A DNA stretch of 58,511 bases from Deltaproteobacteria bacterium. GTDB taxonomy: Bacteria > Desulfobacterota > Binatia > UBA12015. The notes under the pieces are model-generated. The model did no database searches. It was not told where the DNA came from and saw only the letters and a program-made list of their open reading frames with translations. The stretch is from positions 1 to 58,511 of the forward strand of contig VGTG01000014.1 of the NCBI GenBank assembly GCA_016874795.1, in the 5' to 3' direction. Positions within the stretch are counted from its first letter, which is position 1. Every line of letters begins with the position of its first letter. This document shows, in pieces, positions 1 through 38,848 of the stretch. The translations under genes and the position numbers were made by a program.

Positions 1-124
1 TTCTCCCTCCGGGCTCCTCGACGTACTGTTCAAGTACGCCTGCGTCGCCCTCCGGTCCGAGGCTCGCGAATCTTCGGCACTCTCGACCGCCTCGCGACGT
101 GATCTGGTGAGAAATGCAGGCTAG
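1..124. repeat. Partial copy of a dispersed palindromic element
   Basis: These 124 bases are identical to positions 38725-38848, where a full copy is bounded by a perfect 24-bp inverted repeat. Here only the right-hand two thirds are in the window, ending in the same CTAG. It lies just downstream of a minus-strand gene. No transposase is seen, so it resembles a MITE or REP-like non-autonomous repeat. The window starting inside it would fit a contig break at a repeat, which is an inference. Confidence 0.9.
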
Positions 125-252
125 CGGTCGTAGTCCTGCATGATCGCCCAGAGACGCTCGGGCGAATGGGGCAGATCGAGGGAGTAGCGATGCTCGCGCA
201 CGATCAACAGAGGATCGTCGAGTTCGCGTCGAGCATCGAGACGGGTCGGCGA
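121..252 (-). pseudogene. Possible truncated coding remnant ending at the repeat
   Basis: Directly after the TGA of the membrane-protein gene, the same minus-strand frame stays open for 43 codons and stops at a TAG formed by the CTAG end of the palindromic repeat. The translation includes REHRYSLDLPHSPERLWAIM followed by QDYDR, which looks like real protein. It resembles the first strand and helix of an SRPBCC/polyketide-cyclase fold, as if a gene had been cut by the element. A TTG or GTG codon about 10-12 codons downstream of the TGA could serve as its start. The family assignment is a guess from the pattern; it could also be a decayed extension of the upstream gene. Confidence 0.35.
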
Positions 253-2187
253 TCATCTCCCGTGCGGGCAGGACGAACGATCGAATCGCCAGATCTGCGC
301 GCGGCCGTCCTCGTGGAGGAGCTTCAGGCGCGGGTTTCGGCGAAGCCACTCCTCGTGCACGGCGAGGGTGCCGTCGGTTCCGACGGTGCCGCGCCTCTCG
401 CCGAGGTAGACGTGCGTCACCTCCTGCGCGCAGAGGAGCGGGTTCAGGAAGCGCGCCCAGCCGTTCGTGCGGCGGATCCACTCGGGCAGGACGCGGATCC
501 GGTAGCGGAGCTCCTCGGGCATCCGCTCGACCGTGTACGGGAGGGGCGGAAGCGTCGCCCCGCGTCCCGTGTAGAGCGGCAGCCACCAGCCGGCGTCCGA
601 CCCGACCGCGGCGCTGCCGTCGTACGCGGCGAAGGAGTTCACGAGGAAGCGAGCATCTGGAGGGACCTCGCTCGCGATCCATTCGAACGCGCGGAGGTCG
701 CTCGCCGTGACGAGCTGGAAGGACGGCTCGACGGGGGCTGCGCGCGCGCGGAAGCCGAGCAGGGCGAGAGCCGCTGCCGCCGCCAACGTCGCGATGCGGC
801 CGAGCGGCCGGTGTGCGAGCTTCGCGAGGGCGCGCGCGCCGATCACGCCGAGCACGAGCGCCGCGGGGACGTACGCGGCGATGCCGATCGCAAAGTTCGT
901 GACGAAGCCGGTTCCCGGAAGTCCCACGAGGAAGGGGTTCGTGATCAAGAACGCGATGCCGATCCAGGCGAGGGCGACGGCGACGACGCGCTCGCGCACG
1001 AGGGCTCCGAACGCGACCGCGGCGACGATCAAGGCGAAGGCCCACCACGGTACGCGCGCCGGGATCGAGACCCACGCGCGAGTCACGTCGGCGAGCGAGA
1101 AGACGGCGGGATCGATCCCCGCGAGAACGCCGTGCACCGACGGCAGGATTCCCGAGCCGAGGACGGCGAGCCACGGCGACACCGCGAGGAGCGCTGTGGC
1201 GCAAGCGCCGCCGAGCCGGATCGCGCGCGCGCGCCACTCGCGCGGCTCGCGACGCCACGTCCAGAGCGCGACGCCGCTCCAGGCGAGCACCGCCGCGACG
1301 GCGAGCAGCAAGACGCGGTAGTGCGTGAGCGCGAGACCGGCGAGGAGGAGAGCGACGAGGCCGAGCGTACCCCTGCGCGGCCGTGAAGCTTCGCTCCACC
1401 AACGATCGAGAGCGAAGAGGAAGGCCGGGAGAATCGCTTGTCCCGCGAGCTGCGTGTAGCGCCCCCAGCTCACGTAGAACGCGGGCATCGGCGACAGGAG
1501 ACCCGCAACGAGGAGCGCCACGGCGCCCGCGAGCCGGCTGCCGCCCGAGAGTGCGAACGCGAGCGGGTAGAGCGCCACGACCGCGATGACGTTCACGATC
1601 TGGCCGACGACCAGCACGGCTTCGGGAGCGTTTGCACCCGTCACCCAGGCCCATGTGGCGCACGCCGCGTGGAATCCGAAGTGATAGGTGAAGCTCTCCA
1701 TCGGTGCGTAGGGCGCCCAGCTCTGGAACAGCCCGCCGTGATCGAGGAGGAGCTGCGTGATCACGGCGTGCTGAACGGAGTCGCCCCACGCCGGCGCGAG
1801 CATTCCGCGGATCGACAGGAAGCGCGACAGCGCGATCAGCGCGACGAGCACGGCGACGAGGCCGCTCTCGAGGCGAGCGTCGCTTTGCTTCGCCGACGGG
1901 CTCGCGCGCGGACCGCCGAGCCTTGCGGAGAAGCGCGAAGCCGCGAGAATGGCGAGACCCGCCCCGCCGGGCGCCCAGGCGAGGAGCCCTCCCGGGGCAA
2001 ACCCGAAGCACCAGCACCAGAGCGCGGCGAGCGCGTACACGGCGAGGCTCAGCGGTCCCGCGAGCCCGATTCGCGACCAGAAGTCGAGGCGCATCGCCGG
2101 CGCGACGACCGCGAGCACGGCCGCGCCGGGAACGACGTAGAGGAAGAGGGCGGCCGCGATCTCGAGGAAGAGGCCGACCGGCGTCAC
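253..2187 (-). CDS. Polytopic membrane protein, DUF6541 / GT-C glycosyltransferase-like
   Basis: This 644-residue protein has about a dozen hydrophobic segments, starting with a membrane helix at residues 5-30. The motif GDSVQHAVITQLLLDHGG after the third hydrophobic block and YVSWGRYTQLAGQ further on are typical of DUF6541-type membrane proteins related to GT-C sugar transferases. The last roughly 150 residues look like a soluble extracytoplasmic domain. The likely role is transfer or handling of lipid-linked sugars at the cell surface. It lies 61 bp downstream of the Dabb gene on the same strand and may be co-transcribed. The exact activity is unknown. Confidence 0.6.
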   Translation of the reverse strand: MTPVGLFLEIAAALFLYVVPGAAVLAVVAPAMRLDFWSRIGLAGPLSLAVYALAALWCWCFGFAPGGLLAWAPGGAGLAILAASRFSARLGGPRASPSAKQSDARLESGLVAVLVALIALSRFLSIRGMLAPAWGDSVQHAVITQLLLDHGGLFQSWAPYAPMESFTYHFGFHAACATWAWVTGANAPEAVLVVGQIVNVIAVVALYPLAFALSGGSRLAGAVALLVAGLLSPMPAFYVSWGRYTQLAGQAILPAFLFALDRWWSEASRPRRGTLGLVALLLAGLALTHYRVLLLAVAAVLAWSGVALWTWRREPREWRARAIRLGGACATALLAVSPWLAVLGSGILPSVHGVLAGIDPAVFSLADVTRAWVSIPARVPWWAFALIVAAVAFGALVRERVVAVALAWIGIAFLITNPFLVGLPGTGFVTNFAIGIAAYVPAALVLGVIGARALAKLAHRPLGRIATLAAAAALALLGFRARAAPVEPSFQLVTASDLRAFEWIASEVPPDARFLVNSFAAYDGSAAVGSDAGWWLPLYTGRGATLPPLPYTVERMPEELRYRIRVLPEWIRRTNGWARFLNPLLCAQEVTHVYLGERRGTVGTDGTLAVHEEWLRRNPRLKLLHEDGRAQIWRFDRSSCPHGR

Positions 2188-2248
2188 CGGGCGCTCTTCG
2201 TCGGCGGGCCGAGCGTCGAGCCGGGCTTCGGGCCGAGCGGCGCGCCGC

Positions 2249-2554
2249 TCAGCCGTCGATCACGAAGTTCCAGATCTTCTTGACGGCGATCTTCGGCGCG
2301 AGGAACTCGTCGACGAAGCGGCGGTGCGCCGGATCGGCGCGATACTTCGCCACGTCCTCGAGGCTCGCGAACCGAACCGTCACCGTCAGGTCCCAAGCGG
2401 CCTCCGCGTCCTCGTCCGCCGGAAGCCCGACCGTGACCGCGAGGACCCCCGGCAGCGGCGCCAGCGCCTCGCGCGTGCGCCGGGCGACCTCGGCTCGTGC
2501 TTCCCCCTTCGCGTGCGGCTCCGTCAGACGGAAGTAGTGATGGCGCTCGATCAT
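2249..2554 (-). CDS. Small Dabb/EthD-like alpha-beta barrel protein
   Basis: A 101-residue protein beginning MIERHHYFRLTE. It has a ferredoxin-like layout: two long strands (LPGVLAVTVGLP and DLTVTVRFAS) and the helix segment AKYRADPAHRRFVDEFLAP, which is the hallmark of the stress-responsive A/B barrel (Dabb) family. Members are small dimers, some acting as cyclases or lyases, most with unknown substrate. The start at 2554 lies 5 bp after the stop of the upstream acyl-CoA dehydrogenase, so the two are almost certainly in one operon. It may act on a product of that pathway, but the sequence does not show this. Confidence 0.75.
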   Translation of the reverse strand: MIERHHYFRLTEPHAKGEARAEVARRTREALAPLPGVLAVTVGLPADEDAEAAWDLTVTVRFASLEDVAKYRADPAHRRFVDEFLAPKIAVKKIWNFVIDG

Positions 2555-2559
2555 CGAGC

Positions 2560-3645
2560 TCACCAGCCCGCGAGATCGGCGGCACGCTGCCGGTGGTAGC
2601 TCGCCTCGCCGAGGAACGCACGATCGAAGAGGGCGCGGCGGAACCAGAGATGGAGGTCGTACTCCCATGTGAACCCGATGCCGCCGTGCAGCTCGATCGC
2701 GTAGCGGACGGTCGTGTCGTAGAGGTCCGTCAGGTGCGCCTTCGCGAGAGCGGCGTGGCGCTCCGACTTCTCGCGGATGTGGTCGTAGGCGTGCGCCGCG
2801 TACCACCAGAGCGACACCGCGGGCTCGAGGTCGGTCGCGATGTTGGCGAGCTGGTGCTTGACGCCCTGGAAGGCGCCGATCACCTGCCCGAACTGCTCGC
2901 GCGTGAGCGCGTACTGGACCGTCATCTCGAGGCAGCGATGCGCGCCGCCGGAGGCGTCCGCGGCGAGGAGCACGAGGCCCGCGTCGCGCACGCGGTCGAT
3001 CGCCGCTCGGCCCGAGGCGACGGGCGAGGCTGGCGTCCCCTCGAAGCGGACGTGCGAGACGCGGCGCGTGAGGTCGTTTCCCGTGAGCGGCGTGCTCGTC
3101 ACGCCGGGCGCGCCGCGGTCGACCGCCCAGATCCCCGGCCCCTCGGGTCCGCGTGCGGCCACGAGGATCGCATCGGCGACCTCCGCGAACGGTACGAGCG
3201 GCTTCGTACCGTCGAGCTTGCCGCCCTGGAAGCGCGTCTCGAGGCGCTCGGCGTCCCATTCTCCGATCCCTTCGCCGAGAGCGAAGCTCAGGACCGCTTC
3301 GCCCGTCGCGACCGCGGGAAGCCAGCGCTCGCGAGCGGACGCTTCGCCTTCGAGGAGCGCGATCGTCGCCATCGCGTTGCCGAGGAACGGACCCGGCGTC
3401 GAGCTCCGGCCGAGCTCGTCGGCAGCGAGTGCCAGGTCGAGAAGCTCGAGACCCGAGCCGCCGAGCTCCGTCGGCACCATCAGGCCGGTGACGCCGAGAC
3501 CGGCGAGTCCGCGCCAAAGGCCGGAGTCGTGCGCCGTCTCGCTCTCCATGACCTCGCGGACGCGCGTCGGCCGGCACTCTGCTTCGAGATAGCGCCGCAG
3601 AGTCGTCTGGAGCAGCGTCTGCTCTTCGGAGAGACCGAAATCCAT
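2560..3645 (-). CDS. Acyl-CoA dehydrogenase, short subunit type
   Basis: A 361-residue acyl-CoA dehydrogenase starting MDFGLSEEQTLL. The N-terminal helical domain carries the family segment LGVTGLMVPTELGGSGLELL. The C-terminal helices carry REQFGQVIGAFQGVKHQLAN and HGGIGFTWEYDLHLWFRR, which contact FAD. The middle beta domain is short and degenerate. With the next gene it forms a tandem pair separated by 7 bp, like the heteromeric (alpha2beta2) dehydrogenases of steroid and branched-acyl degradation in actinobacteria. The enzyme would oxidise an acyl-CoA to the 2-enoyl-CoA with FAD; the substrate cannot be read from the sequence. Confidence 0.88.
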   Translation of the reverse strand: MDFGLSEEQTLLQTTLRRYLEAECRPTRVREVMESETAHDSGLWRGLAGLGVTGLMVPTELGGSGLELLDLALAADELGRSSTPGPFLGNAMATIALLEGEASARERWLPAVATGEAVLSFALGEGIGEWDAERLETRFQGGKLDGTKPLVPFAEVADAILVAARGPEGPGIWAVDRGAPGVTSTPLTGNDLTRRVSHVRFEGTPASPVASGRAAIDRVRDAGLVLLAADASGGAHRCLEMTVQYALTREQFGQVIGAFQGVKHQLANIATDLEPAVSLWWYAAHAYDHIREKSERHAALAKAHLTDLYDTTVRYAIELHGGIGFTWEYDLHLWFRRALFDRAFLGEASYHRQRAADLAGW

Positions 3646-3652
3646 GCGGTGC

Positions 3653-4873
3653 CTAGCGGCGCGTGTCGCGAGGCAGGCCGAGGCCGCGCTCGCCGATGAC
3701 GTTGCGCTGGATGTTGGGCGCGCCGCCGCCGATCGCGAGCGCGAAGTACATCATGTAGGACTGCACGAGGAAGCCCGAGAACGGCGCGTGCTTCTCGCCG
3801 GGCGCGAGGAGCGCATGATCGCTCGAGATGTCCATCGCGAGGCGCGAGACGTCGTACGCGAGCGTCGACGTGTGCAGCTTCGTGACGAGCCCCGCGAGGC
3901 CCGGGTCCTCACCGCGCGCGCTCGCCGTCAGGAGGCGGAAGCCGTTGTACTCGGCCGCGAGCACGCGCGCCTCGAGCTCCGCGAGCTGCTCGCGCGTCTT
4001 CGAGTCCTCGATCGCGCGCTTGCCGCGGACCTTCGTCTGCTGCGCGAGGAGCACCGTCCCGTCGAACGCGCGCCGCGCCATCGAAGCGTTGCCGATCAGC
4101 GCGCGCTCCGCTTTCAGCGTGGAGCGGCTGACGCGCCACCCCTCGCCGCGCGGACCGACCATCTGACCGCGCGGGACGCGGACGTTGTCGAGGAAGACCT
4201 CGTTGAAGTGCGCGTCGCCGTCCATCTGTCGCAGCGGGCGGACGTCGATGCCCGGCGTCTTCATGTCGATCAGGAGGTAGCTGATCCCTTCGTGCTTCGG
4301 CGCTTCGGGCTCGGTGCGCACGAGCGCGAACATCCAGTCCGCCTCGCGCGCGTTCGAGGTCCAGATCTTTTGACCGTTGACGACCCACTCGTCTCCTTCG
4401 AGGACGGCGCTCGTGCGGAGTGACGCGAGGTCGCTGCCCGCGCCGGGCTCGCTGTATCCCTGGCACCAGCGGATGTGCCCGAGGAGCGTCGGCTCGACGA
4501 ACTGCTTCTTCTGCTCGTCGGTGCCGTGTGCGAGGAGCGTCGGGACGAGCATGCTCGGGCCCTGGCTCGCGAGCTCGGGCGGCGCCTTCACGCGGCGGAA
4601 CTCCTCCTGGAGGATCGTCGCCTTCAGCGGATCGGGCGGCTGCTCGCCGCCGCCGTAGCGGCGCGGCACGTGCCGGTACATGTAACCGCGTGCGGCCGCT
4701 TTCTTGCGGAACTCGGTCGCGCGCTCGTCGGTGCGCGCGATGGAGCCGAGCGACTGCGCCATCTCGCTCGCGACGGGATTGGACGCGGCGTCGGCCGCGG
4801 TCCAGTTCTCCTGCAGGAAGGCGCGGACCTCGTCGCGGAAGTGCTGGTATTCCTCGCTGTATTTCAGGTTCAT
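3653..4873 (-). CDS. Acyl-CoA dehydrogenase
   Basis: A 406-residue acyl-CoA dehydrogenase with the full fold. It has an N-terminal helical domain (MNLKYSEEYQHFRDEVRAFL), the FAD/substrate loop RWCQGYSEPGAGSDLASLRT, the beta-domain motif VNGQKIWTSNAREADWMFAL and a C-terminal helical bundle ending GGGAPNIQRNVIGERGLGLP. It is the first gene of the minus-strand operon and pairs with the shorter dehydrogenase 7 bp downstream. The 139-bp gap to the divergent acetyltransferase gene must hold its promoter. The substrate is unknown; a bulky or branched acyl-CoA is plausible from the paired arrangement. Confidence 0.92.
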   Translation of the reverse strand: MNLKYSEEYQHFRDEVRAFLQENWTAADAASNPVASEMAQSLGSIARTDERATEFRKKAAARGYMYRHVPRRYGGGEQPPDPLKATILQEEFRRVKAPPELASQGPSMLVPTLLAHGTDEQKKQFVEPTLLGHIRWCQGYSEPGAGSDLASLRTSAVLEGDEWVVNGQKIWTSNAREADWMFALVRTEPEAPKHEGISYLLIDMKTPGIDVRPLRQMDGDAHFNEVFLDNVRVPRGQMVGPRGEGWRVSRSTLKAERALIGNASMARRAFDGTVLLAQQTKVRGKRAIEDSKTREQLAELEARVLAAEYNGFRLLTASARGEDPGLAGLVTKLHTSTLAYDVSRLAMDISSDHALLAPGEKHAPFSGFLVQSYMMYFALAIGGGAPNIQRNVIGERGLGLPRDTRR

Positions 4874-5012
4874 GGCGCGCTGCGGCGGAAGCGAAGGCGC
4901 CGCCCCGGTGTCAATAGCAGGCGCGGTCCTCCCCTCAAGCAGGCCGCGTGCTTCCGCGCTCGTGGAAGCGTGCGATTTGCCCTCGCGGGAGAGCTGCGCA
5001 TAGGCTCCGCGC

Positions 5013-5819
5013 GTGTCGAACGACGAGTGGATCGAGCTGTCGGATCTGAATCAGGCCGAGGCGAACCGCGAGCTCGCCCGGCGGGCGGGCGGCGCGGTGC
5101 ACGACGAGGACGGCGTCGCCTTCTGCGCTTCGCCGTATCCGCTGCCGGTGCTCGCGAACGCCGTGCTGCCGACCGGTGGCCGCATCGGGGGCGCCGATCT
5201 CGTCGCTCGCTCGCGCGCCTTTTTCGCGCCGCGGAAGCGCGGCTTCTCGATCATCCTGCGCGCGCACGCCGATGCGGGAATCGCGGACGAGATCCGCGCG
5301 GCGGGTCTCCGTGACTGGGGAAACTCGCCCGCGATGGTCCTCGCGCGCCGGCTTCCCGACGCTCCTCCGCCCGCGGGCATCCGCGTGCATCGCGTGGAGA
5401 GCGACGCCGACGTCGCGGACTTCGCGAACGTGATGCGGCTCGCCTACGCGACCTATGGGCTCCCGCACGACGCGGCTTCGGTGATGCTCGCGCACCGCCA
5501 ACTCCTGATCGCGCCGCACATCGCCACGTTCCTTGCGCGCCGCGAGGACGGGACGGCCGTCGCGGGCGCGATGACGATCGTCACGCACGGCGTCGCGGGC
5601 GTGTACTGGGTCGGCACCGTGCCGGAGGCGCGCGGCCGCGGCCTCGCCGAGCTCTGCACGCGCGTCGCCGGAAACGCGGGATTCGACCTGGGCGGCCGCA
5701 TCGCGTCGCTGCAGGCTTCGGAAATGGGCGAGCCGGTCTACCGGCGGATGGGCTACGTCGAGGTGACGCGCTACCCGAGCCTCGTGCAGCTCACGCCCCC
5801 CGTCGGAGGCGGGACGTAG
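5013..5819 (+). CDS. GNAT family N-acetyltransferase
   Basis: A 268-residue protein starting at GTG (MSNDEWIELS). The C-terminal half holds the acetyl-CoA binding signature VGTVPEARGRGLAELCTRVA followed by LQASEMGEPVYRRMGYVEVT, the classic motif A/B layout of GNAT enzymes. The N-terminal 110 residues are a divergent half domain. It would transfer an acetyl group from acetyl-CoA to an amine; the acceptor is unknown. It stands alone, divergent from the dehydrogenase operon and about 170 bp upstream of the secreted hydrolase. Confidence 0.8.
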   Translation: MSNDEWIELSDLNQAEANRELARRAGGAVHDEDGVAFCASPYPLPVLANAVLPTGGRIGGADLVARSRAFFAPRKRGFSIILRAHADAGIADEIRAAGLRDWGNSPAMVLARRLPDAPPPAGIRVHRVESDADVADFANVMRLAYATYGLPHDAASVMLAHRQLLIAPHIATFLARREDGTAVAGAMTIVTHGVAGVYWVGTVPEARGRGLAELCTRVAGNAGFDLGGRIASLQASEMGEPVYRRMGYVEVTRYPSLVQLTPPVGGGT

Positions 5820-5989
5820 GAGAGCCTCCGCCGCACCCGGGCCGCCTGCGGTCAAGCCCACCCGCGAGGCCGGTTGCGCCATTCGGCCGGCCGAGAGAGG
5901 GTCGGAAGCCGGGTGCGTTTCGCTGGGTGCGCCTCGCTTGCCCCGCGCACCGTCGCTGAGGTAGCGCCTTCTGCGAAGGGAGAACTCGA

Positions 5990-7591
5990 ATGTGGCTCCG
6001 GCTCTCGACCCGTCCGTCCGCACCGAAAGCGCTGCTCTTCGGTGTGGCGTTGCTCGCCTATTCCCTGCTGCGCGGCTCCGGAGCGGACGCCGCTTCGTGC
6101 GATCGAAGGCTCGCCGTCGCGGGCGGCGGCGGAGCGGCCGGACGGCAGGCGATCTGTCGTCCCGAGCGAAGCTCGCACTCTGACGGAGCGAGCGTGGCGC
6201 GTCCGGTCATCGAGGGCCCGGTTACCGGTGGTACGGGCTCGCCGTTCGTCGCCGCGACGAGCTTCGATCTCGCGGACGTCGGCTACGAAGGATCCGAGTA
6301 CTTCCTCTCGGGCATGGCGAGCGCGTACCTGCCCGTCGGCACGCTCGCGTCCGACGGCAAATGGAAGGTCGCTCCCGCGGAGCGCGCCGCGTACAAGACG
6401 CGCATTCTCGTCTACCGCCCGATCGATCCGGTGGACTTCAACGGCACCGTGTTCGTCGAGTGGCTGAACGTCAGCGGCGGGCTCGACGCGGCGCCCGACT
6501 GGATCACCGGTCACACCGAGATCATCCGCCGCGGCGCCGTCTGGGTCGGGGTCTCGGCGCAGCTCATCGGCATCGAGGGCGGCGGCTCGATCCCGGGGCT
6601 CGGCCCGTCGGGGCTGAAGCAGGTCGATCCCGTGCGCTACGGCTCGCTCGTCCATCCCGGCGACACGTTCTCCTACGACATGTACTCGCAGGCCGGTCAG
6701 GCGATCCGCCGCCCGGACGGGCCCGATCCGCTCGGCGGCCTCGAGCTCGAGCGCCTGATCGCGATCGGCGAGTCGCAGTCCGCTTTTCGCTTGACGACAT
6801 ACGCGAACGCGGTCGATCCGCTCGCGGAGATGTACGACGGTTTCCTCGTGCACAGCCGCGGCGGCAGCGCGGCGCCGCTCTCGCAGCCGCCGCAGGCGGA
6901 CGTCCCCGCGCCCGACGTCGCTCGCATCCGCACGGACGTGCGCGTTCCCGTGCTGACGTTCCAGACGGAGACGGATCTCGTCGGCGTGCTCGCCTTCTAT
7001 CCCGACCGCCAGCCGGATTCGCGGAGCTTCCGCTTGTGGGAGGTGGCCGGGACCGCGCACGCGGACACGTACACGTTGGTGACGGGTTTCAGCGACGTCG
7101 GAGGCTCGACCGACGCGGCGAAGATCATCGTCACCGCGGATCCGATCCCGGGCATCATCACGTGCGGCTCGCCGATCAACTCCGGGCCGCAGCACTTCGT
7201 CCTGAAGGCGGCGCTTTCTTCGCTCGAGCGCTGGGTACGGCGCGGCGTTCCGCCGCCGCGCGCGCCGCGCCTCGAAATCGAGGACGGCTCTCCGCCGACC
7301 GTCGTTCGTGACGAGCACGGCAACGCGCTCGGTGGGATCCGTACGCCGTATCTCGACGTCCCGACGGCGACGCTCTCGGGGGAGGGCCAGAGCGGCTCGG
7401 GCTTCTGCTTCCTCTTCGGCACGACGCTGCCGTTCGACGAGGCGAAGCTCGACGCGCTGTATCCCTCGCACGAAGCGTACGTCGACGCGGTGTCCGCTTC
7501 GACGGCCCGCGCCGTGCGCGCCGGGTTCATTCTTCCCGAGGACGCGCCGCTGATCGAGGGCGCCGCGGCCGAGTCGGACGTCGGAGGCTGA
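5990..7591 (+). CDS. Secreted alpha/beta hydrolase domain protein
   Basis: A 533-residue protein with a basic N-terminus and hydrophobic stretch (residues 12-32), probably a signal peptide. The body matches the alpha/beta hydrolase domain family PF20091: GTVFVEWLNVSGG, the nucleophile elbow IGESQSAFRL with Ser262, and a likely catalytic histidine in the segment GTAHAD (His357). These enzymes are esterase-like; the natural substrate is usually unknown. The start is supported by a purine-rich AAGGGAG about 10 bases upstream. Two solute-binding protein genes follow on the same strand with short gaps, so export and substrate capture may be linked. Confidence 0.82.
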   Translation: MWLRLSTRPSAPKALLFGVALLAYSLLRGSGADAASCDRRLAVAGGGGAAGRQAICRPERSSHSDGASVARPVIEGPVTGGTGSPFVAATSFDLADVGYEGSEYFLSGMASAYLPVGTLASDGKWKVAPAERAAYKTRILVYRPIDPVDFNGTVFVEWLNVSGGLDAAPDWITGHTEIIRRGAVWVGVSAQLIGIEGGGSIPGLGPSGLKQVDPVRYGSLVHPGDTFSYDMYSQAGQAIRRPDGPDPLGGLELERLIAIGESQSAFRLTTYANAVDPLAEMYDGFLVHSRGGSAAPLSQPPQADVPAPDVARIRTDVRVPVLTFQTETDLVGVLAFYPDRQPDSRSFRLWEVAGTAHADTYTLVTGFSDVGGSTDAAKIIVTADPIPGIITCGSPINSGPQHFVLKAALSSLERWVRRGVPPPRAPRLEIEDGSPPTVVRDEHGNALGGIRTPYLDVPTATLSGEGQSGSGFCFLFGTTLPFDEAKLDALYPSHEAYVDAVSASTARAVRAGFILPEDAPLIEGAAAESDVGG

Positions 7592-7625
7592 TCGGCAGGA
7601 ATCGGAGAGAAGAGGAAGGGCTTCG

Positions 7626-8720: not shown

Positions 8721-8749
8721 AAGCGCGGCCGTGCCGCGGGGAGGGGACC

Positions 8750-9634: not shown

Positions 9635-9649
9635 GCGAGCCTCGCTCGC

Positions 9650-9952
9650 CGCGCGCATCGTGCGGAAGGTGATCGAGTAGCGCAGCGCCTTCGTCGGCGA
9701 GATCGCATGCTGCCACCGCCGGCGTGCTTCTTCGCGGAAGCGATAGATAGAGCGCGGCTCGAGGTCGATCGTCAGCGATCGCTCGCCACTATGCTTGACG
9801 TGCGGATATGGGCGTAGTCGCAAGCGGCACGAAGCGGCGAGCGAGACGCCGATCACGAGGCCGAACGTCGGCACGTCGCGATGCCATCCGAGCTGCGTGC
9901 CCGGCGCGTACTCCGCGACCGTGCACTGGGCGAGGTCGTCCGGGGACCAAAA
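9650..9952 (-). pseudogene. Truncated AlkB-like 2OG-Fe(II) oxygenase
   Basis: The minus strand encodes the C-terminal half of an AlkB-type DNA/RNA repair dioxygenase: DDLAQCTVAEYAPGTQLGWH followed by RDVPTFGLVIGVSL, then WQHAISPTKALRYSITFRTM. The iron ligands H-x-D (WHRD), the distal His and the arginines that bind 2-oxoglutarate are all present. The first roughly 90-100 residues are missing. Homology stops within a few codons of the hairpin repeat at 9952-10036, so the element or an associated deletion probably removed the 5' half. No clean stop follows the last conserved residue, also in line with decay. Confidence 0.75.
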
Positions 9953-10036
9953 GGGGGTCCGGTTCGTTACGGCGCATCTGCACCCAGGCTCAGAACGAGC
10001 CCCGGTGCAGATGCGCCGTAACGAACCGGACCCCCT
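9952..10036. repeat. Long perfect hairpin (REP/MITE-like element)
   Basis: Positions 9952-9984 and 10004-10036 are perfect inverted repeats of 33 bp around a 19-base loop; the arm begins GGGGGTCCGGTTCGTTACGG. The flank at 10037-10070 repeats part of the arm end (CCGGACCCCCTGTC) as a short direct repeat. Such arms resemble the REP sequences mobilised by RAYT transposases, but no transposase is present in the window. It directly borders the cut edge of the AlkB-like remnant. Confidence 0.9.
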
Positions 10037-10108
10037 GTCCCCCTGTCGAGACCGGACCCCCTGTCGAGACGACTTGCCTGGTGCCGGGCACGCCCGTACG
10101 ATCGCCGC

Positions 10109-27285: not shown

Positions 27286-27304
27286 GACCTGACTCCTATT
27301 CTAC

Positions 27305-29685: not shown

Positions 29686-29698
29686 GTCGGCGCTCCTC

Positions 29699-30946: not shown

Positions 30947-31095
30947 GAAAGTGCACCTACCTGAACTGCCGAAAAACTCCACAGCTTGATGCCGTTGCGA
31001 GCCGATCATCAAACTCGAAATTCGGCTCTTGCGGTCGTTCGGACGGGTACGGCAAGCTCGGCGTCAAACATCGAGGGAGGTCTTTCATGCGTTGA

Positions 31096-32049: not shown

Positions 32050-32058
32050 CGGTTCGCC

Positions 32059-32097
32059 GGCAACGAGCGGAGGCGCCGCCGGGGAGGGCTCGTTGCC
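32059..32097. terminator. Bidirectional intergenic hairpin
   Basis: GGCAACGAGC at 32059-32068 pairs with GCTCGTTGCC at 32088-32097, a perfect 10-bp stem with a GC-rich loop. It sits between two convergent genes (PKD protein ending 32049 and CoA ligase ending 32118), where a terminator for both strands is expected. There is no long T-tract. Confidence 0.6.
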
Positions 32098-32117
32098 CCC
32101 TCGGCGGCCGCGCCGGC

Positions 32118-33596
32118 TCAGCGCGCGCGCCAGCGCGCGTAGCGCCAGAGGTGCTCGAGCACGGTCACGGCGCGGAACGACGACGGATAGGCGAGGCTTC
32201 CGGCTTCGCGCAGCGTCCGCGGCCCCGGGTTCTCCGGCTGGCAATCGACGAGCTCCGTCGCGATCAGGACGGGCTTGTCGAACCGGCGCTCCATCTCGAG
32301 CGCCGCTTCCGCGTAGCGCGCGTCCTGGCGCTCGTGGAACTCGACGATGCGGCCGAGCCCGTGCTCGGGGAAGAAGCCGCCCGCTCGCTCCATCGCGGCG
32401 AGGTTCGACTGGATGCCGACGCCGAGGAGGAGGATCGCGTGCACGTCGGGTTGCGCGGCCGCCTCCGCGAGGCACTCGACCACGGTGTCGCGCGTCTCGG
32501 AGCCGGCGAGGTCGGCGGGATTGTTCCGGCTCCAGCGGGGCGGCAGGCGCGCGTCGAACGCGGCGCGGAGATCGTCGGGAATCGGCATCAGGCGGAGCTC
32601 GCGCGAGGAGGCGATGCGATCCGCGGTGACGACGCCCCAGCCGCCGGCCGTCGTCAGCACGAACACGTTCGGTCCCTTCGGAAGAGGATGCGTCGCGAAG
32701 GTCGCCGCCGTCTCGAACGCTTCCTCGATCGTCGGCGCGCGCGCGATGCCGGCTTGACGGCACATCCCGGCGAAGACGCGGTCGTCCGTCGCGAGCGCTC
32801 CGGTGTGCGAAGCGGCGGCACGCTGCCCGCCGGCCGTCGTCCCACCCTTCAGCACGACGAGCGGCTTCCGCGACGTCGCGCGTCGTACCGACTCGAAGAA
32901 CGTCCGGCCCTCGTCGATGCCCTCGACGTAGATCAGGCTGACGGCCGTCTCGGGATCGGCGGCGAAGTACTCGAGGTAGTCCTCGAGCCGCGTCGCGGCG
33001 CAGTTTCCGGCGGAGACCGCTCGGCTGACGCCGACACCGGTCTTCTGCGCGTAGTTCTGGAACGCCTGGACGAACCCGCCGGACTGGCTCGCGACCGCGA
33101 TCCGGCCGCGCGGCGGGTAGGGCGCCACGATCTGCGCGCAGAGGCTCGCCGGAGTCGAGATCACGCCCTGGCCGTTTGGGCCGATCAGGAGCAGGCCGAG
33201 CTCGTCGCAGAGGCGAACGAGATCTTCCTCGGCGCGCTTCCCTTCCTCGCCGAGCTCGCCGTAGCCAGCCGTGCTGAGGAACGCGGCGCGCACGCCCTTC
33301 TTCGCGCACTCGCGGAGCAGGTCGGGCACCGTCGCGGGCGGCGTGCAGACGAAGACGAGGTCCGCCGCTCCCTCGGGCACCTCGGCGACGGACGTGAGAG
33401 CGCGCCGGCCGAGGATTTCGCCGCCCTCGCGGTTCGTCAAGTACACGTTCCCGGGAAAGCCCTGGCTCAAGAGGTTGTGCGCCGCGACGAAGCCGAACTT
33501 TCCGGGATGGCTCGAAGCGCCGGCGACGATGACTCCCCGCGGCTCGAAGAGCGGACGGAAGCGCTCGAGAACCTCTTGCTCGCGCTTCTCGCTCAC
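32118..33596 (-). CDS. CoA-binding subunit of an ADP-forming acyl-CoA synthetase-like enzyme
   Basis: A 492-residue protein starting at a GTG (VSEKREQEVLERF). Residues 15-150 are the CoA-binding Rossmann domain (PRGVIVAGASSHPGKFGFVA). The succinyl-CoA-ligase-like domains follow, with IAVASQSGGFVQAF and the active-site His in AAASHTGALATDD. It matches the alpha part of NDP-forming acetyl/acyl-CoA synthetases, which join an acid and CoA with ATP to form ADP. The gene upstream encodes the ATP-grasp part and overlaps it by 4 bp, so the enzyme is split into two subunits. Confidence 0.85.
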   Translation of the reverse strand: MSEKREQEVLERFRPLFEPRGVIVAGASSHPGKFGFVAAHNLLSQGFPGNVYLTNREGGEILGRRALTSVAEVPEGAADLVFVCTPPATVPDLLRECAKKGVRAAFLSTAGYGELGEEGKRAEEDLVRLCDELGLLLIGPNGQGVISTPASLCAQIVAPYPPRGRIAVASQSGGFVQAFQNYAQKTGVGVSRAVSAGNCAATRLEDYLEYFAADPETAVSLIYVEGIDEGRTFFESVRRATSRKPLVVLKGGTTAGGQRAAASHTGALATDDRVFAGMCRQAGIARAPTIEEAFETAATFATHPLPKGPNVFVLTTAGGWGVVTADRIASSRELRLMPIPDDLRAAFDARLPPRWSRNNPADLAGSETRDTVVECLAEAAAQPDVHAILLLGVGIQSNLAAMERAGGFFPEHGLGRIVEFHERQDARYAEAALEMERRFDKPVLIATELVDCQPENPGPRTLREAGSLAYPSSFRAVTVLEHLWRYARWRAR

Positions 33597-34252
33597 GAGG
33601 CGCGGACCTCGACGAGAGCGTCGACCGCGATCGGCTCGCCGTCGCACACGATCAGCGGATTGAGATCGACCGAGACGACGTCCGCGTCGCCCTCCATCAG
33701 CCGCGAGAGCCCGACGAGCACGTCGGCGAGGCGCTCGCGATCGACGGCGGGCTCGCCGCGGAACGGGCCGAGCCACGCTTGGTTCTGCAGCTCCGCGATC
33801 AGATCGAGGGCTTCGGTGCGGTCGAATGGGACGAGGCGGAACGCGACGTCCGCGAGGACCTCCGCGAAGATGCCGCCGATGCCGAGCATCACGCACGGCC
33901 CGAAGGTCGGATCCTGCACGCAGCCCGCGATGAGCTCGCGTCGTCCCGGGATCATCGAGGCGACGAGCAGCGCCACGGCGCCGTCTTCGGGCCGCGCCGC
34001 GGCGAGCAGCGCCTCCGCGGCGATCCGCACCTGGGCGACGTTCGTCAAGCCGAGCCGAACGAGACTCCGCTCCGTCTTGTGCGCGATGCGATCGCCGCAG
34101 AGCTTGACGACGACCGGAAAGCCGAGCTCGCTCGCTGCACGCTCCGCCTCGGCGGCGTCGGCGGCGAGGCGCTCCGGCGCGACCGCGACGCCGGCCGACG
34201 CGAGCCGGCGCTTGGACTCGTGCTCGGAGAGGGTTCGCGTTCCACTCGACAT
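33593..34252 (-). CDS. ATP-grasp subunit of the ADP-forming acyl-CoA synthetase
   Basis: A 219-residue ATP-grasp_5 protein (MSSGTRTLSEHESKRRLASA). It has the nucleotide-binding lysine region LGFPVVVKLCGDRIAHKTER, the glycine-rich loop PCVMLGIGGIFAEVLADVAF and metal-binding VVSVDLNPLIVCDG near the end. It binds ATP and transfers phosphate through the partner's histidine. Length suits the free beta subunit. Its stop overlaps the start of the CoA-binding subunit gene. It is divergent, with a 97-bp gap, from the alkylsulfatase-like gene, so both may be induced together. Confidence 0.87.
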   Translation of the reverse strand: MSSGTRTLSEHESKRRLASAGVAVAPERLAADAAEAERAASELGFPVVVKLCGDRIAHKTERSLVRLGLTNVAQVRIAAEALLAAARPEDGAVALLVASMIPGRRELIAGCVQDPTFGPCVMLGIGGIFAEVLADVAFRLVPFDRTEALDLIAELQNQAWLGPFRGEPAVDRERLADVLVGLSRLMEGDADVVSVDLNPLIVCDGEPIAVDALVEVRAS

Positions 34253-34349
34253 CGCTTCTCGCACGGGCGGGGAGCCTAACCTGCGACCGCTCGCGCCGCA
34301 TCCGCGGCCGTGGGTTGTCTCGCCGAACGCCTTGCGACAAGGAGAGTCC

Positions 34350-35618
34350 ATGCCGGCGAATCGCACCGATCAGTTCGCGACGATGGAGGGCAAATCGCCC
34401 GAGGAGGCGAAGTTCTTCTGGACGGGCGGTCCGATCGAGGTCGCGGAGCGCACCTGGTTCCAGTCGAGCTTCAGCGGAACGACGGCCTTCGAGACGGACC
34501 AGGGCCTGCTCCTCGTGGACACCGGCATGTCGATCCTCGCGCCGACGCTCGCCGGGATGCTGCGGCAGCGGACGAAGGCTCCCGTGCACACGGCGATCTA
34601 CACGCACGGCCACGTCGACCACGCGTACGGGCTCGGCGCGTTCCTCGTCGAGGGACAAGCGAAGCCGCGTGTGATCGGACACCGCGCGATGCCCGGTCGC
34701 TTCGGCCGCTACGAGCGGACGCCGGGTCACAACGCGGCGATCAACGCGCGTCAGTTCGGAGGCACGGTCGAGCACGCGCGCCGGCGCTCGCTGCAGACGT
34801 TCCGCCGTCCGGACGTGCCGCCGGACACCTTCTACGAGGAGCGCTTGACGATCGAGGTCGGCGGGCTTCGCTTCGAGCTGCACCACTGTCGCGGCGAGAC
34901 CGACGATCACACGTGGGTCTACAACCCGGAGCGCGGCGTGCTCTGTCCGGGGGACCTCTTCATCTGGGGCGTGCCGAACGCGGGGAACCCGCAGAAGGCG
35001 CAGCGCTACCCGTGGGACTGGGCCGCCGGTCTTCGCGAGATGGCGGCGTGCGAGCCGCGGAGCCTCTGTCCCGGCCACGGCGGGCCCGTCGTGAACGATC
35101 CCGAGCGCATCCAGCGGATGCTTCTCGAAACCGCCTCGTACCTCGAGTCGATCGTCGAGCAGACGATCGCCGCGCTCGAGGCGGGATCACCGCCGCACGT
35201 CGACATCGTGCGGTCCATCGAGATCCCGCGAAGCGACTCGCCGTGGCTCCAGCCGGTGTACGACGATGCGGAGTTCATCGTACGGAACGTGATTCGCTAC
35301 TACGGCGGCTGGTGGTCGGGTCGGCCGAGCGAGCTGAAGCCCGCGCCGCGCGCGGCCGTCGCACGTGAGATCGCTTCGCTCGCGGGAGGCGCCGTAGCGC
35401 TCGCCGAGCGCGCGCGGGAGATCGCTGCGTCGGGCGATCCGGCGCTCGCGTGTCACCTGGCGGACTACGCGCTCGAGGCGAAGCCCGAGGACGCGCGCGT
35501 CGGCGAGATCGTCGCGGCGCTCTACGAAGAGCGCTCCGCCAGCGAGCCGGCCTTGATGACGCAGAATCTCTTCCGCTCGGCGGCCGCGTACGCGCGCTCC
35601 CGCCGGCCGTTCGCGTGA
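34350..35618 (+). CDS. Metallo-beta-lactamase-fold hydrolase, alkylsulfatase-like
   Basis: A 422-residue protein (start MPANRTDQFATMEG, with AAGGAG upstream). Metal ligands are YTHGHVDHAYGLG (His86, His88, Asp90, His91), HHCRGETDDHTWVY and CPGDLFIWGVPN. The helical domain after residue 300 contains VIRYYGGWWSGRPSEL, as in the dimerisation domain of alkyl sulfatases (SdsA1/BDS1 type). Full alkyl sulfatases are longer (about 630) with a C-terminal SCP-2 domain, missing here. It may hydrolyse an alkyl ester or sulfate and yield an alcohol for oxidation. No signal peptide is seen, so it is likely cytoplasmic. Confidence 0.82.
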   Translation: MPANRTDQFATMEGKSPEEAKFFWTGGPIEVAERTWFQSSFSGTTAFETDQGLLLVDTGMSILAPTLAGMLRQRTKAPVHTAIYTHGHVDHAYGLGAFLVEGQAKPRVIGHRAMPGRFGRYERTPGHNAAINARQFGGTVEHARRRSLQTFRRPDVPPDTFYEERLTIEVGGLRFELHHCRGETDDHTWVYNPERGVLCPGDLFIWGVPNAGNPQKAQRYPWDWAAGLREMAACEPRSLCPGHGGPVVNDPERIQRMLLETASYLESIVEQTIAALEAGSPPHVDIVRSIEIPRSDSPWLQPVYDDAEFIVRNVIRYYGGWWSGRPSELKPAPRAAVAREIASLAGGAVALAERAREIAASGDPALACHLADYALEAKPEDARVGEIVAALYEERSASEPALMTQNLFRSAAAYARSRRPFA

Positions 35619-35631
35619 CGTCGATTCGGCC

Positions 35632-36186
35632 TCACGAGTAGAGCGCGACGGTCAGCAGCACCCACGCGACCGCGGCGAAGATCGCTTTCCCGAGAGAGCC
35701 GAAGAGCCGCCCGATCGTCGCGCCGGCCGCGGCACGCACGCTGCCCGAAGCGGTCACCGCGTCGCTCCCCGTGAGCTCGCCGGCGAGAGCGCCCGCGAAC
35801 GTCCCGAGGAGCGCGCCGATCAACGTTCCGACGAGCGGGATCGGGATCAGGGGCGTCAGCGCGATCGCTCCCGCGATCCCGCCGAGGATCGCGCCGATCA
35901 TGCCGCGGCGCGTCCCACCACCGGCGCGACTCCCCGCGGCGCCCGCGAGCGTCTCGACGACCTCGCCGGCGATCGCGGCGAGCACGGCGAGCCCGATCGC
36001 GGTCCAGGCGCTCTCCGGCTGCAGCTCGGACGGCAGAAGCGCGCCGTCGACGAGGGCGACGACCGCGGCGAGCGCGATCATCAGCCACGTTCCGGGGAGC
36101 CCGATGGCCGTCAGGAGGACGCAGCCGAGCCCCGCCAGGGCGAACGCCGTCGCGAGCGCGATCCCGAGCCAGCTCATCCAGGTCAT
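35632..36186 (-). CDS. DUF456 family membrane protein
   Basis: A 184-residue integral membrane protein with about five helices: LGIALATAFALAGLGCVLLT, GTWLMIALAAVVALVDGALL, WTAIGLAVLAAIAGEVVETL, RRGMIGAILGGIAGAIALTP and a C-terminal helix. The central glycine-rich block GALLGTFAGALAGEL is the DUF456 signature. Function is unknown. The start at 36186 was chosen because the open frame upstream has no membrane or domain sense. It is convergent with the MBL gene (gap 13 bp) and divergent from the CBS gene (gap 95 bp). Confidence 0.8.
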   Translation of the reverse strand: MTWMSWLGIALATAFALAGLGCVLLTAIGLPGTWLMIALAAVVALVDGALLPSELQPESAWTAIGLAVLAAIAGEVVETLAGAAGSRAGGGTRRGMIGAILGGIAGAIALTPLIPIPLVGTLIGALLGTFAGALAGELTGSDAVTASGSVRAAAGATIGRLFGSLGKAIFAAVAWVLLTVALYS

Positions 36187-36281
36187 CCTGCGCGACGCGC
36201 GCCCTGCACGCGAGCCTTGACCCTCGGAGAAAGATGGTGCGAGACTTTCCCCAAGGCGCAACCCCGAGGAAGGGAGGCTCC

Positions 36282-36713
36282 ATGAAGACCGTTCAGGATC
36301 TGTTGCAGGCCAAGGGCCGTGAGGTCTGGTCGGTCGCACCCGACCAGTCGGTATTCGAAGCCCTCGAGCTTATGGCGGAGAAGGGCATCGGGGCGGTTCT
36401 GGTCCTCGAGCGCCGCCGCGTGATCGGGATCCTCTCGGAGCGCGACTACGCGCGCCAGGTGATCCTGAAGGGCAAGGCCTCCAAGGACACGGCGGTCCGG
36501 GAGATCATGACGGCGCACCTCGTGACCGTCGGGCCCGAGCGCTCCGTCGAGGAGTGCATGGCCATCATGACGCAGCGGCGCGTCCGGCATCTGCCCGTGA
36601 TGGTCGGGGACGATCTCCTCGGGCTCCTGTCGATCGGAGACGTCGTGAAGGCGGTGATCTCCGAGAAGGAGGACCACATCGAGCAGCTCGAGACGTACAT
36701 CACCCGCGGCTGA
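36282..36713 (+). CDS. Paired CBS-domain protein
   Basis: A 143-residue protein made only of two CBS domains (about residues 10-65 and 75-130): SVFEALELMAEKGIGAVLVL, VIGILSERDYARQVILKGKA and RVRHLPVMVGDDLLGLLSIG. Such free-standing pairs bind adenine nucleotides and report energy state. The start is supported by AGGAAGGGAGG shortly upstream. It stands between a divergent DUF456 gene and a TetR gene; a partner enzyme is not evident. Confidence 0.92.
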   Translation: MKTVQDLLQAKGREVWSVAPDQSVFEALELMAEKGIGAVLVLERRRVIGILSERDYARQVILKGKASKDTAVREIMTAHLVTVGPERSVEECMAIMTQRRVRHLPVMVGDDLLGLLSIGDVVKAVISEKEDHIEQLETYITRG

Positions 36714-36750
36714 GCCCTCAGGCGCGGACCGTATTCGGCCGAAGACTCTC

Positions 36751-36808
36751 TTGACTGCGATGCGGGCCCAGAATAGAAACAGAATCGGATTCGGATTCTG
36801 AATCTGTT
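36751..36808 (+). promoter_or_regulatory. Promoter and palindromic TetR operator
   Basis: TTGACT at 36751-36756 and TAGAAA at 36774-36779 are spaced by 17 bases like a sigma-70 promoter. Just downstream, 36778-36808 is a 31-base imperfect palindrome (12 of 15 positions pair) with outer halves AACAGA and TCTGTT. It overlaps the -10 edge and ends 26 bases before the tetR start. Its A/T content is unusual for this region. This placement suits autorepression. Confidence 0.65.
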
Positions 36809-36834
36809 CCGATCCGGGTCCAGCTCGAGAGCCG

Positions 36835-37521
36835 ATGTCGACGCACGCACAAGTGGTCGCCCTCAAGACGGTCGCCGGGCCGAAGCAGGCCCGCAGCGAG
36901 CGGACGCTCTACCGGCTCCTCGACGCGGCCGAGGCATTGATCCAGGAGCGCGGCCTCGGCGGCGTCTCGATCCCGGAGATCGTCCGGCGCGCGGGATCGT
37001 CGGTCGGCGGCTTCTACGCGCGCTTCCGCGACAAGAACGAGCTCCTGCGCGCTCTCGAGGAGCGCTTCTACGGCGAGCTCGATCGCCGCGTCGAGGCGCT
37101 CGTCGACGAGGATCGCTGGCGCGGCGTGCCGACGCGGACCATCGTCGACGCGGCGGTCGCGGAGCTCGTGACGGTGACGCGCGAGCGGGAGCGGCTCCTC
37201 GCGGCGTTCCTGTTCCGCGCGATCCAGGACCCGGAGGTCCGCGAGGACGCGCTCCGCTTCCGACGGAGTGTCACGGAGCGCTTCGAGCAGCTCCTGTCGT
37301 CGCGCCGCGGCGAGATCGCGCACGCGGAGCCGCGGCTCGCGATCGATCTCGTCATCCAGATCACGTTCGCGTTCATGCAGGAGCACGTCCTCTTCGGTGA
37401 GACCCGCGCCGCCGGCCGGGCGCTCACGGACGAGGAGATCCAGAGGGAGCTCGGCGAGCTCGTGCTCGCCTACCTGGGAGTTCGCGAGGTGCGGCGCGTC
37501 AAGGGAGCGCGCGCCGGCTGA
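36835..37521 (+). CDS. TetR/AcrR family transcriptional regulator
   Basis: A 228-residue regulator. The N-terminal helix-turn-helix is typical: RLLDAAEALIQERGLGGVSI, EIVRRAGSSVGGFYARFRDK and NELLRALEERFYGELDRRVE. The C-terminal ligand domain is unlike any I recognise and ends in a basic tail. It would bind the palindrome at 36778-36808 as a dimer and release it on ligand binding. The diiron protein gene starts 25 bp downstream on the same strand and is the most likely target. The ligand is unknown; acyl or aromatic compounds are plausible. Confidence 0.9.
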   Translation: MSTHAQVVALKTVAGPKQARSERTLYRLLDAAEALIQERGLGGVSIPEIVRRAGSSVGGFYARFRDKNELLRALEERFYGELDRRVEALVDEDRWRGVPTRTIVDAAVAELVTVTRERERLLAAFLFRAIQDPEVREDALRFRRSVTERFEQLLSSRRGEIAHAEPRLAIDLVIQITFAFMQEHVLFGETRAAGRALTDEEIQRELGELVLAYLGVREVRRVKGARAG

Positions 37522-37545
37522 TCAACGAAGAGGTTGGAGGACACC

Positions 37546-38652
37546 ATGGACTACACGCAGACGAATCCGATCCCGATGCCGCCGGGTGGCGCGTTCTCCT
37601 CCGTGCGAGGCACGCTCGAGACCGTCTTCGACTGGCAGTACGAGCTTCGCAAGAAGAACCTGCTCTCGCTCTACGAGAAGGGGAAGACCCTCGCGTGGAA
37701 CGCTTCCGACGTCGACTGGTCGATCGACGTCGACATCGAGCGCCTCGCGCACTCGCGCGTGCAAAACGGGCTCGGCAAGATCATGAACGACGTGCTCCAG
37801 CCGCCGGTGAAGCTCGGCGACGAGGAGCTGATGAAGATGCAGCTCCACACGAACGCGTTCATGCTCTCGCAGTTCCTGCACGGCGAGCAGGGCGCGCTCC
37901 TCGCGACGGCGAAGATCGTGCAGAACGTCCCTTGGGAGGAGGCGAAGTTCTACGCCGCGAATCAGGTCTCGGACGAGGCGCGCCACGTCGAGGTCTATCA
38001 TCGCTACCTGACGGAGAAGCTCGGTCTCTCCTACGAGGTACATCCGAGCCTCGGCCGGCTCCTCGACGACATCATTCTCGATCCGCGGTGGGACGTGACG
38101 TTCCTCGGCATGCAGATCCTCGTCGAGGGTCTGGCTCTCGCGGCGTTCGGAGTGCTCCGCATGCAGATGGCGGACGAGCCGCTGATCCAGGACATCGTGG
38201 GCCGCGTGATGGCCGACGAGTCGCGCCACGTCGGCTTCGGCGTGATCGCGCTCGAGAACATCTACCGCCACGGGATGAGTGCTGCCGAGCTGCGCGAGCG
38301 CGAGGACTTCATCATCTCGGCGACGGAGCTCCTGCGCGAGCGTCTCCTGGTCACGCCCGTCTTCGAGCGTCTCGGGTGGGACGCGGACGTATGGACGCGC
38401 TGGTCGATCGACACGCCGTTCATGCGCGGCTTCCGCCAGATGACGTTCTCGAAGATCGTGCCGAACCTGAAGCGGCTCGGGCTTCTCACGCCGCGCGTGC
38501 GCGACGCCTACGAGAAGCTCGACCTCCTCAAGTACGAGCACATGAAGGACTCCGTCGAGGAGCCCGAGGCGCCGCCGCCGCACGAGCTGGTCGAGCTGCT
38601 GATGCAGTTCATCCAGAGCTCGGCGACGGAGGGGGCCGCCGCGGCGAGCTGA
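37546..38652 (+). CDS. Ferritin-like diiron protein
   Basis: A 368-residue mostly helical protein. The iron-site pattern of the ferritin/ribonucleotide-reductase-R2 superfamily is visible: FLHGEQGALLATAKIV, then YAANQVSDEARHVEVYHRYL and IVGRVMADESRHVGFGVIAL, giving two Glu-x2-His-type motifs and extra carboxylates. Members include N-oxygenases (AurF-like) and other diiron oxidases. It is too short for R2 plus partner and lacks the radical tyrosine context I would expect. It lies 25 bp after the TetR gene with a GGAGG upstream. Its 3' end is next to the palindromic repeat. Confidence 0.75.
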   Translation: MDYTQTNPIPMPPGGAFSSVRGTLETVFDWQYELRKKNLLSLYEKGKTLAWNASDVDWSIDVDIERLAHSRVQNGLGKIMNDVLQPPVKLGDEELMKMQLHTNAFMLSQFLHGEQGALLATAKIVQNVPWEEAKFYAANQVSDEARHVEVYHRYLTEKLGLSYEVHPSLGRLLDDIILDPRWDVTFLGMQILVEGLALAAFGVLRMQMADEPLIQDIVGRVMADESRHVGFGVIALENIYRHGMSAAELREREDFIISATELLRERLLVTPVFERLGWDADVWTRWSIDTPFMRGFRQMTFSKIVPNLKRLGLLTPRVRDAYEKLDLLKYEHMKDSVEEPEAPPPHELVELLMQFIQSSATEGAAAAS

Positions 38653-38662
38653 GCTTCTCCTT

Positions 38663-38848
38663 CTAGCCTGCATTTCTCACCAGATCCCTACTGCGGCGGC
38701 CGATAGCACCGAATCTTCGCGAGCTTCTCCCTCCGGGCTCCTCGACGTACTGTTCAAGTACGCCTGCGTCGCCCTCCGGTCCGAGGCTCGCGAATCTTCG
38801 GCACTCTCGACCGCCTCGCGACGTGATCTGGTGAGAAATGCAGGCTAG
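38663..38848. repeat. Full copy of the 186-bp dispersed palindromic element
   Basis: The outer 24 bases (38663-38686 and 38825-38848, starting CTAGCCTGCATTTCTCACCA) are a perfect inverted repeat. The arms continue to pair imperfectly towards a central CGTACT-GTTCA-AGTACG hairpin at 38746-38762, so the whole unit can fold on itself. Bases 38725-38848 recur unchanged at 1-124. It lies between convergent genes and contains no gene. A MITE-like origin or a terminator role, or both, is possible. Confidence 0.93.

Follow-up and report, generated by a model that had tools for sequence, protein, structure and literature searches.

What kind of element leaves the same palindromic sequence at two distant points of one contig, and by what means does it spread? 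The question is raised by a stretch of 58,511 bp (hereafter the window) from the Deltaproteobacteria bacterium assembly GCA_016874795.1 (G000; 6,266,316 bases in 360 contigs, 96.7% complete), which starts at base 1 of contig VGTG01000014.1 (C14) and in which positions 1-124 and 38725-38848 are, as the original prediction had it, identical over 124 bp. The second of these stretches belongs to a 186-bp unit at 38663-38848 with perfect inverted ends, whose computed folding energy of -106.6 kcal/mol, against -59.3 (sd 4.3) for shuffled sequences (z = -11), places the folding ascribed to it earlier far beyond chance. We find that the unit is almost certainly a miniature inverted-repeat transposable element (MITE) enclosed in a 4-bp YTAR target-site duplication (TSD), and probably a non-autonomous DDE-type transposon with ends of the IS1380 type. 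In kind the element is ordinary; what is unusual is that its body persists across bacterial phyla under differing ends and that its target spares stop codons. Its parts, together with the second copy in the window, are the following:

38667..38844, + strand: MITE proper, 178 bp (the 186-bp unit minus both CTAGs), defined by sequence, by the identity of all scored places over 186 bp and by YTAR as a direct duplication
38663..38666, no strand: left TSD, CTAG, from sequence and the duplication analysis of YTAR
38845..38848, no strand: right TSD, CTAG, from sequence and the duplication analysis of YTAR
38667..38686, + strand: left terminal inverted repeat (TIR), 20 bp, probably of IS1380 type, from sequence and comparison with IS1380 ends
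38825..38844, - strand: right TIR, 20 bp, from sequence
38687..38824, + strand: palindromic core, 138 bp, marked by compensatory changes and conservation in distant bacteria
38738..38768, + strand: central hairpin with conserved non-complementary flanks, the best-conserved part among cores with different ends
1..124, + strand: right part of a second copy, truncated by the contig start, with its TIR at 101-120 and its CTAG duplication at 121-124

At 178 bp, with perfect 20-bp TIRs and no transposase gene, the element has the anatomy of a MITE, and it is abundant in its host genome. Its exact 24-mer end occurs there 115 + 115 = 230 times and its exact central 31-mer 68 + 71 = 139 times, which we estimate to represent about 115 copies, as some 91 whole ones and 48 halves, on the assumption that a whole copy supplies two ends and one centre and a contig-end half one of each, diverged copies being ignored. 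Across the full 186 bp all 40 scored places, of which the window's is one, show no difference; diverged copies of 97-99.5% identity are also present, and each of the 30 whole copies read carries different flanks. At all eight contig ends fetched for a lone TIR the sequence breaks off 111-127 bp into a copy; because the window, too, starts at contig base 1, what stands at 1-124 is an ordinary copy that the assembly truncated, and no meaning attaches to the 38.7 kb between what had been described as a pair of copies. In three congeners (G001, G002 and G003) the two flanks of the window insertion, the site for which orthologous loci were compared, find their matches next to each other, 52, 115 and 81 bp apart, without the element; a 12-of-16 match to the element within the G001 locus is, by estimate, at chance level. 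The exact 17-mer end is absent from the 13 other genomes of family f1 examined, among which only G002 matches the element, through an 84-bp core fragment at another place. Together, the high copy number, the TSDs and the orthologous sites without the element support both the MITE anatomy and the recent movement that the original prediction had proposed; the situation that it named as speaking against mobility, two copies only and at the same loci in relatives, is not what the genomes contain.

The extent of the element cannot be read from the host genome alone, where copies nearly always end in CTAG and, because this tetranucleotide is palindromic, repeat end and target duplication are indistinguishable. 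We consequently turned to 197 distinct insertions spanning several size classes and genomes (five end patterns, at most two mismatches, all of types other than that of G349). The same 4-mer stands on both sides in 132 of them, with CTAG/CTAG in 115, TTAG/TTAG in 8, CTAA/CTAA in 5 and TTAA/TTAA in 3, and the non-palindromic YTAR pairs are direct in 13 cases and inverted in none (no TTAG...CTAA and no CTAA...TTAG). These direct pairs in other genomes indicate a 178-bp element that ends in 20-bp TIRs and is flanked by a duplicated 4-bp YTAR; the same 13 to 0 led us to discard the candidate reading in which CTAG belongs to the TIR, so that of the 24-bp TIR with CTAG ends described earlier the perfect inversion stands and the outer four bases pass to the target. 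Two observations weigh against a uniform duplication: unlike 4-mers flank 65 of the 197 insertions, and the four outermost positions of the G349-type end form an inverted pair (TTAG...CTAA in L290), which speaks against a duplicated YTAR in ends of this kind.

The chosen target has consequences for the genes around it. In 836,279 bases of the host genome (loci L235-L274 plus the window, partly chosen from contigs without listed copies and holding only three copies) we count 109 CTAGs outside copies where base composition predicts 2,347, a shortfall of about 20-fold. Of these empty sites 91 are intergenic and 18 lie inside genes; 10 are convergent, 30 divergent and 29 on a gene's TAG stop. Among 45 insertion sites of the same genome (copies less than 700 bp from a locus edge excluded), by comparison, none lies inside a gene (Fisher p = 0.002), 23 are convergent (p = 4e-8), 5 are divergent and 25 fall on a stop codon (p = 8e-4). 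At three sites (L013, L027 and L050) both convergent genes had ended in one shared CTAG. Because CTAG is duplicated, the neighbouring genes each keep their own TAG stop and the gene stays intact; the duplicated target would make insertions silent, and copies would then pile up at gene ends, in this host mostly between convergent genes and less between divergent ones. Such an insertion rule, under which a rare, avoided 4-mer that frequently serves as a stop codon is copied at each insertion, explains how a genome of about 92% coding sequence can house about a hundred copies of a mobile element. Weighing against it are the home-made gene finder on which the coding fraction and these counts rest, an earlier gene model having put 2 of the 45 copies inside genes, and the counts from five other genomes: although 23 of 57 copies there lie on a stop codon, 11 of the 57 are inside predicted genes and only 9 are convergent, which indicates that the convergent bias belongs to the present host and is not general.

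The element extends well beyond this host. A DNA search of 98 genomes gave matches in 12, counting the host, and in other families of the class these include homologues of 182-186 bp. A deep search of twelve genomes, each known beforehand to hold the element, returned from 16 to at least 150 matches each, where a palindrome may match on both strands and copies may be half as many. An exact-end scan of public genomes yielded at least 106 stretches, from metagenome-assembled genomes (MAGs) of many phyla. In 54 of the 106 listed we could pair the two ends; 14 hold a 176-200-bp element, and 13, all but the one in L186, which gives no convincing alignment, match that of the window over their full length. 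By their titles, the MAGs carrying the 13 are Gammaproteobacteria, Acidobacteriota, Holophagae, Bryobacterales, Thermoanaerobaculales, Myxococcales, Deltaproteobacteria, Gemmatimonadetes and Fermentibacteria. We built a covariance model from 22 elements (set A1: 22 of 27 elements of 176-200 bp, leaving out two near-duplicates from the host, one unlike the rest and two longer); it matched 50 of 395 phylum genomes, again with the host included, at E <= 1e-4, and in 21 of the 50 the best match reached E <= 1e-14; many weak matches cover the core only. The family is also present in the single-contig genomes G167 and G459. Against the viral_contigs set (IMG/VR), by contrast, there were no exact matches to the common end, to the window core or to a degenerate short-loop core pattern that does not fit the window's own core, an absence that is odd for so widespread a mobile element. 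No description of the element was found in the literature searched, where coverage of subscription papers is small, and the end and core 12-mers occur in literature text in four papers, none of them related by title.

Variation within the palindromes was seen alongside. Elements of a second size, about 246 bp, which share the ends and contain another, off-centre palindrome, occur at L141, L177, L191, L198, L203 and L204, hosted by the Gammaproteobacteria MAGs Site_C13 and MAG_Ve_Sed_22. The palindromes of L183, L208, L211 and L087 contain extra hairpins or short tandem units, which in L208, from Acanthopleuribacter pedis, are GAAAGGTCGGCCCCGC-like.

As to what moves the element, comparison of ends points to the IS1380 family. 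The single-contig genome G167, of the same phylum as the host, contains a complete PF13701 element (E 9e-157; 1,690 bp including flanking CTAGs) with the ends CTAGCCCGGATGATTCATGA and CTAGCCCGGATAATTCACGA, and the MITEs of that genome begin with the closely similar CTAGCCCGCATTATTCATGA. In G128 a MITE-type end, CTAGCCCGCATTTCTCACCA, identical to the common MITE end, is followed at a contig edge by the start of an open reading frame (ORF) encoding 13 residues, presumably akin to IS1380 N-termini, and three partial PF13701 matches lie elsewhere in the genome. This sharing of ends is seen for those of G167 and G128, as distinct from the window's exact end. We infer mobilization in trans, with an IS1380-family transposase as the probable mover: such an enzyme would recognize the ends of the element and insert it at CTAG.

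Several results weigh against this assignment. An intact IS1380 transposase was not found in the host genome, an incomplete assembly that holds a single PF13701 remnant of 276 bases with a stop; a MITE usually, though not necessarily, shares its genome with an autonomous partner. PF13701 is matched in 5 of 13 genomes of the class examined (the host among the 13) and exceeds the cut-off in only 8 of 23 further element-bearing genomes, multicopy insertion sequences being often missing from MAGs. No IS1380 match was obtained by tblastn in the 106 public exact-end stretches with queries that were few and distant (a G117 gene in two frames, a single G014 protein and the 13-residue fragment, too short to score; targets were 153 loci, L072-L224), and the matches that did arise were confined to loci that had been retrieved by PF13701. 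Of the ORFs that point inward next to the element ends in the 106 stretches, none was taken by eye for a transposase, no family search being made on them. The earlier suggestion of a MITE mobilized in trans is borne out as to anatomy, and the IS1380-type ends, with their likeness to those of the transposase-bearing element in G167, make such mobilization plausible; in the host itself a broken remnant is all that was recovered, and the trans step is our proposal. Beside the IS1380 element of G167 (L305, about 2926-3100) we also observed a series of GGAACCACTGACCTGATTCAGAAGGGATTGCGAC repeats resembling, by sequence alone, clustered regularly interspaced short palindromic repeats (CRISPR).

After loss of the transposase gene, the body of a MITE is generally expected to be free to drift, with only the ends of importance. 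The palindromic body of this family departs from that picture. In a plain MAFFT alignment its 29 internal pairs (TIRs excluded) are 87.8% paired, a percentage flattered by the structure having been derived from the same alignment, with both-sided changes in 23 of them and a covariation score of 0.553 against 0.193 for shuffled columns and at most 0.118 with the partner slid. Both-sided changes outnumber one-sided ones by 145 cells to 13. Fitted to the model, 50 distinct sequences (drawn from the best 51 of 105 covariance-model matches, the remainder being mostly opposite-strand and a few lower-scoring best-strand places, including L291-L296, falling outside the set) show both-sided changes in 26 of the 29 internal pairs and 81.9% Watson-Crick pairing, against 53.7% shuffled and at most 29.1% slid. 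The count of further pair types gives a weaker signal, standing at 49 against 44.6 for shuffles, 40 of 500 of which reach 49. Conservation is not limited to paired positions: among the 50 sequences, conservation reaches 80% or more in 34 of the 92 model columns that are unpaired, those of the TIRs counted in, and the central hairpin is bordered by conserved flanks, TCCTCGAC before it and GCCTGCG after it, that are not mutually complementary. The body would accordingly be maintained by paired changes together with conserved unpaired bases around the central hairpin.

Whether DNA or RNA is the pairing molecule can be approached through mismatch types. G-T and A-C cells number 96 and 57 over all internal pairs, 44 of the G-T cells coming from one constant T-G column; within the core of the 50 sequences they number 48 and 43, and in a smaller set without the constant column 15 and 28. 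G-U is not favoured in the way expected of an RNA selected on its own strand, and the base-pair pattern points, weakly, to DNA pairing; transcription of either strand would also even out G-T and A-C, and the lack of a clear G-U excess is indirect evidence. What is selected would then be a folded DNA strand, as a hairpin or cruciform, rather than an RNA, and it would probably aid amplification of the element. We put forward a folded-DNA function of the body tentatively, as somewhat short of an even bet, and its selection for helpfulness to amplification is a guess that we hold with similar reserve.

The same body also recurs under ends of other kinds. Three copies in G349 (L290, L327 and L339) have, by eye, TTAGTCCCAAATCAAG-like ends, and the core in G094 (L042) sits in a palindrome with ends that, again by eye, are TTGAAAAAGGCCC-like. 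When five reference cores with trimmed TIRs are compared with the cores of G094, G014, G442, G404, G016, G209 and G349, the latter exceed dinucleotide shuffles by z = 7 to 22, values that are somewhat generous because the shuffles do not preserve the palindrome; among these genomes end types were assigned, by eye, for G349 and G094. The core could possibly, though we would not favour the odds, be a structured DNA module, preserved in many phyla through paired substitutions and a nearly invariant central hairpin with non-complementary flanks, that was captured repeatedly between the ends of different transposons, with the body and not the ends as the unit of descent. The ends so used may comprise several kinds of IS1380 type besides those of G349 and G094, and their differences may have arisen by capture into unrelated transposons or from a single IS1380 end that drifted. 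A MITE body conserved across phyla, with covariation and under differing ends, makes the role of such bodies testable. Next to the element in G349, at L290:1380-1500, lies another palindromic repeat, whose core is weakly related (z = 6.8), and in L339 the element seemingly lies, by eye, within a copy of that repeat.

Both the palindrome and its spread admit other explanations. Correction of one arm by the other during replication (quasipalindrome repair) could keep a palindrome without selection, the element being an ordinary, decaying MITE, and would readily produce the excess of both-sided over one-sided changes and the mostly Watson-Crick pairs; we regard it as unlikely, if worth serious thought, since it leaves the conserved unpaired columns unaccounted for, would erase the non-complementary hairpin flanks, and sits poorly with retention of the core in distant bacteria and under different ends. 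An RNA-level element (terminator, mRNA stabilizer or small RNA) spread by selection on transcript structure would suit the strong folding, the compensatory changes and the gene-end location in the host, and yet appears improbable: G-U is not clearly favoured over A-C, the five Rfam matches in 11 loci all fall far below the gathering score without overlapping an element, and the identity of the 40 copies and the TSDs require transposition anyway. The structured terminator considered in the original prediction is not supported: no terminator-like site, a GC hairpin followed by a T run, was found in 38500-39100.

A further alternative would be an element like the repetitive extragenic palindromic (REP) sequences, moved by a Y1 tyrosine transposase (REP-associated tyrosine transposase, RAYT) that reads the central hairpin, with the outer inverted repeats incidental. 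For GTAG/CGTC REPs a convergent or 3'-end location and repeat ends that supply TAG stops to flanking ORFs are described in PMC3733652, and the host has 13 Y1-like matches, most of them partial and weak, against 0-1 in the three congeners. We nevertheless think this explanation very improbable. In 5 of 12 element-rich genomes, among them G529, which has the largest number of matches, Y1 is absent at E <= 0.001, though MAGs may miss genes; the 4-bp direct duplications fit a DDE transposase; and the body, compared by eye with the layout given in PMC3733652 (a 20-40-bp hairpin with a GTAG/CGTC tag), seems not to share it. The REP units described there further differ in size and motif from the window element, whose stop codon lies in the target duplication. 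An assembly artefact, in which a collapsed or chimeric repeat simulates identical copies, could be suspected in a MAG of 360 contigs with breaks inside copies, and is scarcely credible given the different flanks of all 30 whole copies, the existence of diverged copies and the presence of the same family in the single-contig genomes G167 and G459.

The preferred reading, a MITE with IS1380-type ends, can be set beside known systems. Enterobacterial repetitive intergenic consensus (ERIC) is a long imperfect palindrome. With the IS1380 family (PF13701), whose family-wide TSD rules we take as general background, the element shares its end sequence and the 4-bp YTAR duplication, the G167 element having like ends and CTAG on both sides; it differs in lacking a transposase and in a palindromic body of other origin. 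This family forms the prokaryotic outgroup in the piggyBac trees of PMC10813416, and the piggyBac tetranucleotide TTAA given there occurs among the duplicated sites of the element family. The Chunjie MITE of Geobacter uraniireducens, as described in the review PMC10969869, is similar in its size (178-235 bp), its tens of mostly intergenic copies, its conserved TIRs and its direct repeats; the likeness is one of description, and we claim no homology. The same review (PMC10969869) presents ERIC as an intergenic MITE common to many species, with tens to hundreds of copies, in which it resembles the window element, and places it in Enterobacteriaceae and Vibrionaceae, whereas the window-type body spans several phyla and is seen with other ends too.

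The window copy itself lies between two genes:

37534..38652, + strand: upstream gene, which stops 10 bp ahead of the left CTAG, with matches to AurF and DUF455, both below the curated cut-off
38980..40794, - strand: AMP-binding enzyme, the convergent neighbour, downstream of the unit

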